Assembly (NCBI GenBank): GCA_004114245.1
Contig: QZWS01000130.1
Coordinates: forward strand, 1 to 23,276
Direction of reading: 5' to 3'
DNA length: 23,276 bases
Source of the DNA: Zoopage sp. CT-All
Lineage: Eukaryota; Zoopagomycota; Zoopagomycetes; Zoopagales; Zoopagaceae
A model generated the notes under the pieces. It was not told where the DNA came from. It saw nothing but the letters and a program-made list of their open reading frames with translations, and did no database searches. The translations under genes and the position numbers were made by a program. Of the stretch, positions 1-7,158 are shown piece after piece. The first letter of the stretch is position 1, and every line of letters starts with the position of its first letter.

Positions 1-55
1 TGGGCACTGACGGTATCCGCTCTGTTTGCTGGAAGGTACCTGCCCCGCGTTGTCG
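1..55. repeat. Left-edge arm of an exact 55-bp inverted repeat
   Basis: These 55 bases are identical to the reverse complement of 1284-1338, which spans the end of exon 2 and start of intron 2 of the TBC1D5-like gene. The identity stops abruptly at 55/56 and includes intron sequence, so it is either very recent or an assembly fold-back at a contig end. Confidence 0.95.
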
Positions 56-1636
56 ATTTTCTCCAGTTGATGAAAAATCTTGAACGACCATTCGATGACT
101 GGTGTTTGCTTTCCGGTAGGTTGCTGGGGGATTTTTTTAAATTCACCAAGCAATAGTTACTGGTTAGTGTTGGCCACCCACTGATATGGTTGGAAGACTT
201 ATTGGAGTCGAGTTCTGAACTCGCACTAACTTACCTCTGGGGTCTCTGATCTACCAAAGAGCTGGGTTTGAGGTACGTTCGTTGGCTGTTCATGTACATC
301 AAAACCAGGGCTAATAGTAAGCTTTTGCTTTCCATCCAGTCTATTCCACAAATCAGGCGTAGCCTTGACTTTCGTAAACGCACCTTGGATTTTCTGCCTG
401 GGAAGCCTTCTTCGCTGAACTCGTACCAGGGCTTGGCCCGAGACATCAAACTTGAAAACAAGGCAAAGGTATCGTGCTCGATATAAGTCGAGTCCAGCAC
501 GCTCTTGATCACCTCCAGCGTCGCGTCCCTAAGTGCCATCGTTCACAAACGTAAAGCTCAATAAGTGCAGAATAAAAGCAGCCGGTCATGAAAAGATGGG
601 TGACATACGGCACTTACGATGTCATCGTAGGTTCGGAATGGATATCGAGACTCTCGGAAGATACAACCCATAGAACATGTGCCAGCAGCTCGTGCATTCC
701 CTGACGATAGGACACGTCGTGGTTGATCTTACAGTATATAAACAGAATGTCGCTCAATTGCTCCTGAACTCGTTCAGACCGGAAGTAGTCATTGTCTGGT
801 AGTCTATTTCACAAGGCGAACAAAAAAAAAAAAAAAAAAAAGTCGGGGTCAAGATTCAGCATAGCTGCCCTTCCTCCCCTCCCATGACGATCTTTTTACA
901 TCCCCTTTAACAGAAGGTGCACATGGACTCACGTTCGCTCCACATCCTGCTTGATAATCTTCTTGAGTTCTGAATCAACAAAGAACTGCTGCCAGGGGCT
1001 GTCCTCTGCCAGACTCAATGGGTTGTTCACCTCTAGGTCCGGCTCTGAACCTTCCTCGCTCCCGATAGCTCGAATATACTGTTTTCGAAGTTGTATGTAC
1101 CGCTCACGCTCTTTGTTCATAGCAGACGGCCATGTGGAAAGTTCGAGTGAAGGCAGACATGATAAGTACACCTAGGCAGACAAATGCGAGAAACACATGT
1201 GAGAAACTAAGCTCTTTACCACATATTGAAAAAAAAAGCCTTTTGAAGCAAAAGTCATTCAAAGTAGCTAGTCAAGGAAAGGACGACAACGCGGGGCAGG
1301 TACCTTCCAGCAAACAGAGCGGATACCGTCAGTGCCCAGGTTGGAGTGCTGTGACAGCGCTCGCGCTTTGAGCGACGCTAGGGTCAGACTGGGATCCTCA
1401 AAGACCTCGGTCCATTTCTCTCTAGGCGAGTGGAAGACAGCATGGCAGAAAAGATGGAGCCACAGAAAAGGAGAGCAGTGAGGATCACGGAGCAACCGTT
1501 GGGTGATGGAGGTGCCTGAGCAGTTTGACCATGCTGGCTGCCCACTGCTACGCCTATTTTCGTGTGCCTGTGCCTATGCCCAAGCCCATGCCCATGCCCA
1601 GTCCATGGCGTACCTTGCTCCTTTGAGGGTGTTCAT
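1..1636 (-). CDS. TBC1D5-like Rab GTPase-activating protein, 3' end missing
   Basis: Six exons are supported: 1636-1614, 1421-1304, 1171-933, 803-618, 528-384, 327-235, then 123 to the edge; all introns are GT-AG and keep phase. The first 23-nt exon (MNTLKGA) is inferred from the only ATG plus donor that fits the phase. The protein reads as a TBC domain of the TBC1D5 type: a VNNPLS motif near residue 95, the arginine-finger motif IKQDVER (residues 120-126, R126) and the glutamine-finger motif YRQG (159-162), both intact, so GAP activity is expected. The family stimulates GTP hydrolysis by Rab proteins (TBC1D5 acts on Rab7 with retromer); the substrate here is inference. About 310 codons are visible; the last 18 codons lie in an inverted duplicate of the gene's own exon/intron sequence and are probably not genuine. 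The acceptor of the exon at 327 could also be at 321. Family assignment is firm, the extreme N-terminus less so. Confidence 0.85.
822..841. repeat. A20 homopolymer in an intron
   Basis: An uninterrupted run of 20 A on the plus strand. On the sense (minus) strand it is a T20 tract upstream of the acceptor at 804, within the 129-nt intron 3 of the TBC1D5-like gene, and may act as its polypyrimidine tract. Its length is likely to be unstable and error-prone. Confidence 0.9.
1284..1338. repeat. Internal arm of the 55-bp inverted repeat
   Basis: This is the native copy: it encodes the residues GTDGIRSVCWK of the TBC domain and carries the splice donor GTACCT at 1303. Its inverted twin occupies the first 55 bases of the window. 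Confidence 0.95.
1561..1605. repeat. Degenerate CCCATG hexamer repeats in intron 1
   Basis: A run of CCCATG-like hexamers (TGTGCC, TATGCC, CAAGCC, CATGCC, CATGCC) lies in the first intron of the TBC1D5-like gene. It is imperfect, simple-sequence in nature, with no evident function. Confidence 0.6.
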
Positions 1637-2095: not shown

Positions 2096-5000
2096 CTAGA
2101 GTTCGTTTTGAAGGTGCGGTTCACTCGTCGTCTTGGATGAGTGTATGCTATGCCACTGCGCCAAGTATCGTAGCCTGCGACTGCCGTTGGCGCTGCTTGT
2201 TGCGCTCGTCTGCAGCATCTGATCTGTGTCTGTGTCTTGGTCAACAAGCGGCGCCTCCACAGGGGGCTCAGAACTGTCGTCGAACGAGCCTGATGCCAGC
2301 CAGGGTTCGGTTTCTGTAACATAAAAATACAATCCAGTGAGTACCGAGAACATGTCTGAGCAGAGGCGCTTCGCAAGTGCATCCGAAACGTATAACTTAC
2401 TGTCAAAGTGCAAGAATGCATATACAGGCACAAAGACGTATCGGAGGGGAATAGTGACGAGAAAAAGAATAAATCCCGCGAGATTCGCTGCTGGACCTTG
2501 AAATCCAAGGAGAAGGCCCAAGAGCGGTTGCAGCACCAACACAGACAGCGCAAACGCGAGTGCCAGAATCGTTGGCAAGGAAAACAAGGCACCTACTCCC
2601 GTAACAGCCCCTACAGCCACAAGGACAGTCATCGCCCACGCCAGGACAACGATAACAGGCGAAAGTACAATGCTCAACCACTCGAGAAAGACCAAAACGT
2701 AGACCAAGACGCCTCGTGTCGCACGAGGTTGTGCTGACCGCAAGTGTTCCCATAAAGCGTGGAATCGACCGATGGCGGCTCGGGTCTGTTGGCGAAGATA
2801 TGTCGAAAAAGTGACCGTGGCTCTTGTGTGGTAGATGGCATCAGGTAGGTACACTACTCTCCTGCTGGGAAGTGCTCTGCCGAGGAGGCCTGTCAAAAAC
2901 CGATCCTCGGTGCCATCAACGAGCATGCTTCGCTCGTGTAGCGTGCGGGTCTTGACGGCAGTAAACGCCGAGACGACGTCCGGATGGATCAGGATCGGAA
3001 TGAACCGCTGATGACTCTCTTTGCCAACTGGTTCTAATGAGCTGGCGAGTTTGTCGCCAGCATCGTCACTATCCACATCTTGTCGAAGTCCAGCCTTGAA
3101 CTCGCCTTCATCCGAGCCATGTTCCACTGCGCTCTCCATGTGGACACTAGAATCATCGCCTGAGCAGCGTTCCATCACACTGACCCCAGGCCTGCGTTCA
3201 CTTTCCGATCGCGTCACCTTGATACGATACAGAGAAAATCCGCTCGGCAGACAGTCCACTGCGCCGATCAACGATTCGAATGCCACACTGAACTGCAGAG
3301 CAAGGTGGCTCTCATAGTCCTGAACCCGCGTCAGCCAGGTGTCGAGACTGTTTGATATCCGTCGCTTGGCACAGACACCCACGATCCTCTCGTTGTTGCG
3401 CAAGGCAGCGACCATTCGAAAGATGCTCTGCTCTTCACACTCGCTCCCGACTGCCGCCATGAGCATCAAATCAAAGTGCTCTGGCCCGTGTCCCAAAACT
3501 GCCCTGGTCTTTTCAAAGAGCGAGTACTCAAAGGCCGTGACAGGCTCATTGAAGCAAATGCGGTGTAGCCAGCGCAGCACAAGTCTCTTCTTTGACCAAC
3601 TACTATAGTCTTCCTGCGACGAGCGACGGCGGGAGGTGGGGAGGCTGATAACGACATACGGTACTCGATGAGTCTCCACCTGGTAAAACCCTGAATATAT
3701 CGCGGAGACGCCGTCTGGAACTGTGTCTGCCTGCTGCAAATTACAAACAGCTAAAGACTCGACATCCTGCTCAATGTCCGCTGCTCCTGCTGTACCCTTT
3801 TCATCTAGAGCTAATACAGATGCAGCTGTCACCGACTGATCCATGAGCCGCACACAGGATTGTGCTCCCTGACCGGTGCCTCCCGGAAGGTGCTCTGCAG
3901 CCTCGTCTGCCACCACGAGCAAAAGCGTTCTGCCCGATCGATTGGCCAAGACTAGCGAGTCCAAAGTCGCCTTGATCTGCTGCTCCTGATCGGTCGCTCG
4001 ACAAGTAACAAACATGAGAACTGGATTGTCACCGTTGGTTTCGCCATTGATATTAGTCCCAAGATATCCCTTCTCAGTGCGGGTGATGGGGCGAAGGAAC
4101 ATCCAGCGATACACCAGCGCTGACACCAGACGCATAAAGCTAATCAGTAGTAGAACAGATAGCGCCAGCGTGTTGATCACAATAGATGCCAAGCAGCCGT
4201 TGGTTTGTCCAGAGAGAACACCGACTTTGAACGCTCCTTGAAGACAATGGGCCAGAATTCGGTGATCGGGCTGCCTCCGGATGGCTATGGTCGCGTCCTT
4301 GCCCACCAGACTTCTGATCCAGACCATCTTGTCCTTTTCCTCCGCGCTGGCGATGTTGCTTATGTTCTGGGCCAGATAGTTGGTGACATCGAGAACGGTA
4401 CCGTCATACACAAAGAGTTGTCGTTCAAGAGCGCCATTCCGAACATCATCCCAATCGTACACTATCCTGATATCGCTCCTTGCAAATCGCCGCATCACGC
4501 CCTCAGGTGCCGGGGTGCTGTGACAATGGTTGAAATCGCCGCGTACCAACGAGCACTTTCCAAAGCCATTCGCCAAACCAAACAGTTGACACGTAGGGTT
4601 TAGATCCGCTGGAGGGAACAGAAATGAAATGTCGTCGCCGTAGTTTGCTGACAGAAAAGCATCCAGTGCCGCCCAGGTGACATTGTATCCAGACATCGAC
4701 GGATGAAAGCCTTCCAAGAAGAGTCCTCTGACATCGTATATCACGCCCTGAATCGTGCAAAGTCCTCCTTGTTCATTCGCGTTGATGGCCGAGTCTCCGT
4801 ATTGTGCCTTGAAGTCAGCGGGCTTGATGGATTGGACAGAGCGAGGTCGGCAAGTTATCAGCGCTAGTCCAAAGGCTAGGAAACCAAGCGCCACCGACAG
4901 TACTATAATCATGATACATAGAGCAACCTTCTCCCTCCAGTCCTGCCGCCGGTCTTTGCTCCATGACTTTGGAAACATCCTTGATGGACAACAAAGGGTG

Positions 5001-7158
5001 GTACACTGGGAGAAGACGAGCCAAGCATAGTTTCTTGACCGTTCCTTGAATCGCCTTCGACGAATGATCCGCCTATTGAGATGCTTTTCCATGTCATGCT
5101 GTTTTTCGCGTTCTGAGCGGCTTTTGCTAGGAGGTCCCTGTAGGCAAATATCGGTGACGGAGGTCGCGTTCGCATGGACAAGAATGGAACTCGTGGCATG
5201 AGGATGAATTTCAAGCCGGTAGTCGATCTCTGCTGCTCCATATCGTGGAATGATACCGCTTCGATGTACAGTGTATGTCTGCGTTGAGGGTGTGAGTTCT
5301 GCCAAGGTCTTGGAGGTTGTTTGTTGAGACTGCTCGTTAGAACTAGCGTGAGCAACACCTACCGCGTCATTCATAGGAGCTACTGGCGAGGGTCGCTCTG
5401 GTACCGATCGTTCTGCTGCTGGTGACACTACATCATCTGCATTCGCCAACATTGAGGAAGGATTACTTCGCTCGGCTAACAGGGCGGGAGGCATAGTTGC
5501 GTCGGTAGCCGACGGCAGAGGAGAAACAGGCTCGTCCAAAGAAAGTTTAGGTTGAATAGGGGCAACGTTGATCGAGCGCGGGCGGCGCCCCTTGGGTGCA
5601 GGAGCCAGGCGCGAGGATAAGGCGGATTGTCGTGAGATGGTGCTGTTATGCGCCGAGAAGGACCTTCGCGGGCGATAATGGTCCTCCTCTTGAGCCTCTT
5701 CGGGGACGGAGGGCAGCGAGGGTGCTGGAGAGTGTGTGCGTCGCGAGGGCGATCTTGGCACGGCAGGAAGAATCTGCTGAATCAGGGTCATTGAGCTGAT
5801 ACCGGATCCTGAGCCAGTGCCCGAGACTGTCCCTGAGGACGACGTCGACAGGTTGATGTCCCTAGCAAGGAATTTCGAGATATAGGACGCGATGGACTTG
5901 TGGCCCGCGTCCCAGGACAAACTACGCGCGTTCTTTCCGTTCGCAGTCCTGATGTGGGGATCTGCTCCATGGGCTAACAGCAGCTTGCATGCCTCAAGCT
6001 TGCCCGCGTAGGCCGCCAGCATCAGTGAGGACCAGCCATACTGATCCAGGGTGTTGAGCGAGGCGCCTTGCTCAATGAGCTCAGCCATGACATCGACATG
6101 GCCAGCGTAGGATGCAAGGAGCAGTGCGGACTTTAAAGTGTTGTCCTGCTGATTGACGTCTGCATGGCCAACGGCGATGAGCAGGCGGCAGATGGAGACA
6201 AAGCCGTTGTATGACGCGATGATGAGCGGGGTGATTGATTCCTGTTTGGCATGGAGGAGTACGAGCGAATGTATGGATTGTACGGATGCACAGATACGTA
6301 TCACAAGGCGAAGAGCCGTCAGGGACAGAAGGGGCAGGGGGACCAAAAAGACCAGCGGGACAGGGGTTCAAGGAGCACAAATAAATACATTAACAAACTG
6401 GTTAGTGCGCTTTTCAATTATACAACAGCTGCGTTTTTGGCACCATAGAGCGAAGGCTGTTTCTCACTGCGGAACACTCAGGGGTGGGTCATCTTACCTC
6501 GTTGCCCAGCATGGCGGATGCGCCAGCATGCAGCAGAAGCTGGACACACTCTGTCGAGCCAGCCGCTGCGGCCTGGTACAGCGCCGTCTCGCCCTCGTCA
6601 TCTGGGCAAGCGACCATCGAGGATAGTCGCGAAAGCCAAAGAGGGGTTGCAGGAATAAAAAGGAAAAAAAAAAGGCCTCGTTGCAGATGAGTGATACAAT
6701 CATTCCTCCTTGAGCAACAATTCAATGCATAGTCCCCTTGCTCGCTTGAAAGTATCAATTCTCGAACGACCAGCGTGATCGCCTTTTTTTTTGAAAACGG
6801 AGTGCTCATTACCTTGCATATCAACATCGATCGACGGCAGAGCCAAGAGATATCGAAGCACACGGTGCTTGTTCTCTGTGCCTGCCACCATGAGCATCGT
6901 CTTGCCCTCTCTGTCACGTATTTTGTTGGGGTCCAGAGAGAGGCTGGTGAGGACATGGTCCAGGTGCTCAGTGTTCTGGACCAGCACTGCATGGAAGAGT
7001 GACCGCACCACCCCTGCCACCGAGTAGCGCCGCGTGGAGGGAATAGGGGTGATGGTTGCAGCCGTGGTGGTGGTGGAACTGGATGTCTCCAGGAACGAGG
7101 ACTCGTCCAGATCCGAGCTGGCACTGTTCTCATGGCCGTGGAAACCGTTGGTCTCCAT
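2096..7158 (-). CDS. Ankyrin-repeat / cytochrome-b5-like / chitin synthase family protein, probable pseudoenzyme
   Basis: Four exons: 7158-6813, 6601-6498, 6241-2401, 2313-2096; 1502 residues. Order: about six ankyrin repeats (40-277, e.g. GETALYQAAAAGSTECVQLL); a Ser/Pro-rich linker (280-550); a membrane segment (588-612); a cytochrome-b5-like region (627-825); a second membrane segment (830-860); a division-2 (class IV/V/VII) chitin synthase domain from about 890; several C-terminal membrane segments (1320-1420); an FLHFDKTEPW end resembling the family's FWHFDDFSWG. The catalytic signature is eroded. The DADT metal site reads as MAAVGSE (about 1078-1084), LPGCF reads LPSGF, and QRRRW reads QQTRAA (about 1301); only the ED of GEDR remains (TEDRF, about 1262). 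Active chitin synthases polymerise UDP-GlcNAc at the plasma membrane; this one probably cannot, and may scaffold or regulate other synthases (inference). The last 87-nt intron is in frame and stop-free, so it could be retained. Family call is firm; loss of activity is inferred from motifs. Confidence 0.88.

Follow-up and report, generated by a model that had tools for sequence, protein, structure and literature searches.

An ankyrin-fused chitin synthase homologue of Mortierellaceae without its catalytic motifs, a probable membrane pseudoenzyme scaffold

The stretch of DNA analyzed here (23,276 nucleotides, contig QZWS01000130.1 of assembly GCA_004114245.1, deposited as Zoopage sp. CT-All; hereafter, the window) carries on its minus strand, at 2096..7158, the gene for a motif-less homologue of division-2 chitin synthases (CHS) that is fused to N-terminal ankyrin repeats. 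The explanation we favor, and regard as reasonably probable, is that an old ankyrin-CHS lost catalysis in the ancestor of Mortierellaceae, a family of soil fungi, and was retained as a membrane pseudoenzyme scaffold. Comparison of the sequences supports the descent, the loss of the motifs, and a retention during which constraint shifted to the ankyrins and to a new phosphorylation-like linear motif; it points to the conversion of an enzyme of wall building into an adaptor or regulator anchored in the membrane.

The gene begins with an ATG at 7158 and its stop codon ends at 2096, exactly where the first-pass annotation of the window had placed it. Splicing of four exons across introns of 211, 256, and 87 bp, all of them GT...AG, yields a protein of 1502 residues with zero internal stops. 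Exon 1 (6813..7158, with a GT donor at 6812) contains the start codon and the first ankyrin repeats, exon 2 (6498..6601, with AG/GT borders) one repeat, exon 3 (2401..6241) the last four repeats, the linker, and nearly the whole CHS part in a single open frame 1280 codons long, and exon 4 (2096..2313, behind the 87-bp GT..AG intron at 2400-2314) the C-terminal tail and the stop; these and all features below lie on the minus strand. An independent gene model, P0016 of Mortierella sp. AD094, aligns to 7158-6805, 6614-6498, and 6253-2903, that is, to the first three exons with near-identical borders. Because exon 3 alone reads through four repeats, the linker, and almost the entire CHS part, the fusion holds whatever the splice model, and a separate transcript for the ankyrins, which had been raised as a possibility, was ruled out.

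In a Pfam scan, the window protein matched Chitin_synth_2 (PF03142) in two stretches, the best at residues 888-1165, with 201.9 bits against a cut-off of 27, which places it in the division-2 CHS family. The scan also detected the ankyrin families Ank_2, Ank, and Ank_4, as well as the CHS4-like (b5-like) domain PF22997 at residues 743-825 (4217..4465). By hydropathy, a first membrane segment lies at residues 585-616 (4844..4939), a second membrane stretch ahead of the core at residues 830-864 (4100..4204), and the C-terminal membrane segments at residues 1324-1427 (2411..2722). The division-2 architecture read earlier from the sequence therefore stands for the synthase domain, the CHS4/b5-like domain, and the membrane segments; the cytochrome b5 family itself (Cyt-b5, PF00173) was not found in the window protein at an E-value of 0.001, being sub-threshold in homologue P0002 and above the cut-off in P0010 and P0145. 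Neither the myosin head (PF00063) nor DEK_C (PF08766), by which class V/VII enzymes are recognized, was found at the same threshold. The ankyrin repeats, put at about six in the first-pass annotation, are present, and ∼7 units were counted by eye in residues 45-284, of which residues 151-284 are encoded by exon 3 (5840..6241; delimited by identity to Mortierellaceae rows). A sequence search of exon 3 against solved structures gave 386 matches, and the best 60 of the 386 were ankyrin proteins and fusions, with no chitin synthase among these. The degenerate GT2 catalytic core (residues 888-1315; 2747..4030) was delimited by PF03142 together with its predicted fold, which Foldseek matched to chitin, hyaluronan, and cellulose synthases, with a moderate model and low TM-scores (0.35 for the best row).

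Proteins of this kind were found in many genera of one family. A search with the CHS half returned 18 proteins, 15 from Mortierellaceae with ankyrins and CHS plus three distant CHS; a profile search returned 26 proteins, 11 of them new and of the motif-less ankyrin-CHS kind (one each from Gamsiella, Modicella, Lobosporangium, Mortierella sp. AM989, Dissophora globulifera, and Linnemannia gamsii, two from L. zychae, and P0140, P0141, and P0143). The homologues found thus number 26, all Mortierellaceae-type, and every named genus belongs to Mortierellaceae; P0140, P0141, and P0143 were assigned to the family by similarity only, and P0141 (873 residues) has no detected ankyrin family. Podila, Benniella, and Actinomortierella, among other genera of the family, had no row in either search, each of which scored only the ∼8000 candidates sharing most words, so that absence elsewhere is not proven.

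The motifs that had been read from the window stand at their sites, with AAVGS at residue 1079, LPSGF at 1148, EDRFLT at 1262, and QQTRAA at 1301. They were aligned across 27 Mortierellaceae-type rows (the window protein and its 26 homologues) and 40 comparators, namely, 35 ankyrin-CHS, P0017 and P0033 (both without detected ankyrin), C386, P0018, and P0151. The roles of the motifs, as given in the portions consulted of a 2025 review (PMC12653383), are those of the donor binding tub, the general base, the acceptor site, and the gate. At the former metal-binding DAD, now AVG (residues 1080-1082; 3446..3454), DxD was present in 0/27 Mortierellaceae-type rows: the second Asp is replaced by Gly in all 27, and the first by Glu (17), Ala (5), Lys (4), or Thr (1). 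In the former KRDxQ stretch, now W-x-x-K (residues 1032-1035; 3587..3598), Trp has taken the place of Arg and Lys that of Gln, again in 27/27. In the alignment, the LPG gate motif reads LPS (3242..3250), and the former QRRRW reads QQTRA (2777..2791), although the register here could be shifted by one residue, in which case the window reads QTRAA and retains the Gln. Exact QRRRW was found in 0/24 Mortierellaceae-type rows with residues there. Beyond what the first-pass annotation listed, the window protein also lacks the KRDxQ stretch, SWG, the Tyr of VTCY, and the Gly of ADG; all 27 rows are without SWG in their C-terminal 250 residues. Among the hallmarks of a functional CHS, it lacks DxD and QRRRW and keeps EDR (residues 1262-1264; 2900..2908).

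Among 124 other CHS rows of a wider alignment, most of them best hits to a motif-intact query and hence biased toward intact rows, D-x-D was present in 123/123 with residues there, EDR in 114/114, and exact QRRRW in 113/114 (TRRRW once). Orthologues keeping DAD and QRRRW were looked for specifically; they exist outside Mortierellaceae, and none was among the Mortierellaceae-type rows found, so that the loss looks like a derived trait of Mortierellaceae. A frameshift artefact limited to this assembly was ruled out, the losses being common to four M. alpina records and to other genera.

The part of the protein under strongest constraint is not the core. Identities by region were compared among 14 of the 27 Mortierellaceae-type rows and among 12 of the 35 motif-intact ankyrin-CHS, fuller rows being chosen. 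Median identity in the former was 0.82 for the ankyrins, 0.44 for the linker, 0.51 for the CHS4 part, and 0.50 for the core, and in the latter 0.56, 0.31, 0.55, and 0.82, respectively; as the two groups differ in age and sampling, the contrast within pairs is informative and the absolute values are not. Ankyrin identity exceeded core identity in 55/55 usable Mortierellaceae pairs versus 0/66 of the other pairs, and the CHS4 part was similarly conserved in the dead and the live family. Across residues 45-284, the window protein is 82-98% identical to twelve Mortierellaceae rows that span most of the stretch and 80-89% to three partial rows (P0140-P0150 lay outside this comparison). Within the linker follows a Mortierellaceae-specific linear motif, SPSRRTHSPAPSLPSVPEE (residues 314-332; 5696..5752). 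Its pattern, S-P/S-S-R-R/K-T-H-S-P-x-P-S-L-P-S-V-P-E-E, occurs in 26/27 Mortierellaceae-type rows (the exception, P0141, lacks residues at this place) and in 0/127 others, and in most Mortierellaceae-type rows it is succeeded by a stretch resembling RSFS...NSTISRQS. The S-P and basic patterns in the motif suggest kinase sites. Constraint thus appears to have moved from the core to the ankyrins, which, with the adjacent motif, are the most constrained parts of the protein. This distribution also bears on the idea of a dominant-negative subunit, whose dead core would pair with active division-2 synthases and lower their activity. Such a subunit would agree with the retained synthase body and membrane segments, and dimers are discussed for yeast Chs1 and Phytophthora Chs1 in the sections consulted of PMC12653383; however, the core is not the conserved part and the ankyrins are under the strongest constraint, which makes this alternative unlikely.

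The fusion itself is old and sits mostly on motif-intact enzymes, contrary to the novelty implied in the first-pass annotation. A motif-intact ankyrin-CHS on contig C374 of the same assembly (L010, 2386-6206) was used as search query, and the best 120 of 3122 hits comprised ankyrin-CHS from Glomeromycotina, Geosiphon, Endogone, Calcarisporiella, Basidiobolus, Entomophthora, Coemansia, Syncephalis, and Blastocladiella; no named Mortierellaceae protein was among these 120. An origin of the fusion as a Mortierella novelty was accordingly ruled out, motif-intact ankyrin-CHS being present in many early-diverging fungi. The ankyrins of the window matched 37/37 of the ankyrin-CHS rows given, mostly at 37-51% identity and in most rows along most of the stretch (30-39% for the Coemansia and Entomophthora rows; 29.6% over 54 residues for P0136). 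With ankyrins alignable to those of motif-intact ankyrin-CHS and in one frame with the core, the window protein belongs to the ankyrin-CHS orthologous group. In a tree built on ankyrin and CHS4 columns, the catalytic core being left out (45/45 rows passed the residue filter), Mortierellaceae formed one clade (100/100) inside this group, on the side of Endogone, Calcarisporiella, and Glomeromycotina and split (98/99) from Basidiobolus, Entomophthora, Coemansia, Syncephalis, C374, and Blastocladiella; Blastocladiella, Entomophthora, and C374 were flagged as long rows. Vertical descent, with catalysis lost on the Mortierellaceae stem, would be the simplest history.

Several observations weigh against this history or against a dead core, together with the selection of the control rows and the unequal groups mentioned above. 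The Mortierellaceae stem is long in both trees (1.32 without the core). The tree of the catalytic core, in which it is very long, does not place the clade and flags an odd residue make-up of the window protein, P0003, and P0012; the columns outside the core were used for that reason. Gln1302, which in the shifted register may correspond to the Gln of QRRRW, is conserved in 22/24 rows, and QxxxW occurs one residue on in 5/24 (P0008, P0011, P0143, P0144, and P0147) as QRLYW, QRLLW, or QSQLW, which argues that loss of the acceptor site is partial and later than that of DxD. The earliest losses were probably those of the metal site and the KRDxQ stretch, with uneven erosion of QRRRW. Exact EDR is found in 19/26 rows with residues there, the window included, and Asp929 of ADG is retained in 27/27, as is Gln1124. 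These retained residues, along with the GT2 fold of the model, would also fit a repurposed enzyme with a residual, metal-independent transferase or ligand-binding activity toward a different substrate. However, neither DxD nor KRDxQ nor SWG persists, 4/26 rows (one of these a broken model) have another residue in place of the general-base Asp1263, and the core is the fast-evolving part, so that we regard a repurposed enzyme as quite unlikely.

Four gene models (P0016 and P0148, P0149, and P0150, the latter three from Linnemannia) break off or change near EDR, by annotation error or real truncation. This, too, speaks against a retained scaffold and, like the fast evolution of the core, would be expected of a pseudogene in slow decay or of a protein in which only the ankyrins matter and the core persists by chance. 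Yet core identity is at least 0.40 in 91/91 pairs of the 14 chosen rows, 62/342 core columns are at least 95% conserved across the 27 rows, the frame of the window gene is intact with GT-AG introns, and the new residues are fixed in 27/27; decay is therefore very improbable. The earlier proposal of a selected pseudoenzyme is well supported by the loss of DxD and the fixed replacements in all 27 rows, by long frames in many genera, and by the conservation shifted from core to ankyrins.

For the scaffold, the following mechanism is proposed. Within an old group of ankyrin-fused division-2 CHS in early-diverging fungi, the window protein would represent Mortierellaceae; the relatives found outside this family are motif-intact. 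An ancestor of those Mortierellaceae that were sampled would have lost the metal site and the donor-site stretch KRDxQ, with erosion of the acceptor motif QRRRW coming later. The predicted location of the protein is the plasma membrane or chitin-synthase vesicles, and its ankyrins, linear motif, and dead GT domain would face the cytoplasm. Ankyrins and motif may bind a conserved partner, for instance, a trafficking, cytoskeletal, or signaling protein, under the control of phosphorylation, and the dead synthase body may anchor this platform beside active synthases, with which pairing is possible, and so place or regulate chitin synthesis while making no chitin. A membrane-anchored platform is suggested because the ankyrins and the motif are most constrained, whereas the dead core changes fast but keeps its modelled fold. 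More tentatively, and with rather less than even confidence, the protein may be a pseudoenzyme hub across the whole family, in which ankyrins and a fixed phospho-motif recruit a conserved partner and the donor site, which now carries the invariant Trp, Lys, and Gly, tunes chitin synthesis as a pocket that is structural or senses a ligand.

The origin of the assembly deserves comment. Among the named relatives listed, the C374 ankyrin-CHS is closest to those of Syncephalis and Thamnocephalis. Because C374, itself flagged as a long row, pairs with Syncephalis in the tree without the core (95/87), because third-codon guanine-plus-cytosine content differs (0.70 in C374 versus 0.57 in exon 3 of the window), and because its listed hits included no named Mortierellaceae, the assembly may mix a Mortierella-like fungus with another fungus. 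It is thus doubted that C374 is an active ankyrin-CHS of the same organism, and C374 and C386 were not counted as the window organism's own. The assembly also contains two RPB2-like loci, whose similarity is 31-40% in most pieces and 68% in a single piece of 41 residues; they look like polymerase paralogues and speak neither for nor against a mixture. Directly downstream of the ankyrin-CHS gene lies a TBC-domain gene (49-1423, minus strand), whose model in a relative bears the name TBC1 domain, member 5. The two genes are merged into one model in Entomortierella chlamydospora (P0009) and Mortierella sp. AD094 (P0016), so that the neighborhood is common to relatives. A perfect inverted repeat of 55 bp links the contig start (positions 1-55 of the window) with a site 1.3 kb inside (1284-1338) and looks like a fold-back chimera from amplification or assembly.

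Public records name such proteins inconsistently. Five motif-intact ankyrin-CHS (P0026, P0029, P0054, P0073, and P0080) are called "ATP-dependent RNA helicase," probably a spreading wrong name, and others "chitin synthase-domain-containing protein" or "hypothetical protein"; domain-based CHS counts in these genomes may therefore be off. A CHS record of Boothiomyces macroporosus (P0088) has precomputed kinesin-type domains (PF00225 and PF16796), possibly a kinesin-CHS fusion or a merger of gene models.

Chitin synthases are drug targets and are classed by motif and fusion domain. Neither an ankyrin-CHS class nor a CHS pseudoenzyme was found described among the papers that searches of the open-access literature of PubMed Central (PMC) listed, nor in the portions consulted of PMC8778642, PMC5122149, PMC12653383, PMC4471660, and PMC3942036; the main text of the CHS classification paper (PMC5122149) has no word starting with "ank," and "ankyrin" does not occur in the 2025 review (PMC12653383). 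If the hub proposal is true, the proteins would be, as far as literature searches show, the first described chitin-synthase pseudoenzyme family. The ankyrin-CHS constitute a fusion class not described in the literature searched, whose records come from many early-diverging fungi, arbuscular mycorrhizal fungi among them. A natural loss of catalysis at the family level, with clear signs of continued selection, is a natural experiment on the roles of the CHS body besides chitin making and on the control of its placement.

Compared with division-2 CHS (superclasses IV and V; classes IV, V, and VII, as defined in section 7 of PMC5122149, the portion consulted), the window protein is alike in its Chitin_synth_2 core, its CHS4/b5-like domain, and the flanking membrane segments; it is unlike them in lacking DxD, exact QRRRW, and SWG, in its N-terminal ankyrins, and in a Pfam scan without myosin head or DEK. 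The motif-intact ankyrin-CHS of early-diverging fungi share its domain order (ankyrins, CHS4-like domain, CHS core), and those of Glomeromycotina, Endogone, and Calcarisporiella fall on the same side of the tree as Mortierellaceae. In contrast to the window protein, they retain DxD, EDR, and QRRRW wherever the rows have residues at these sites, their core is the most conserved part, and the SPSRRTHSP motif was seen in none examined. The myosin-fused CHS (class V/VII, myosin XVII) are catalytically intact and, like the window protein, join a division-2 synthase to an N-terminal partner domain, which is a motor domain in the former and ankyrins in the latter. In the sections consulted of PMC12653383, the myosin head of class V/VII CHS is given a role in trafficking and tethering, and by analogy, the ankyrin platform of the Mortierellaceae protein may play a comparable part.

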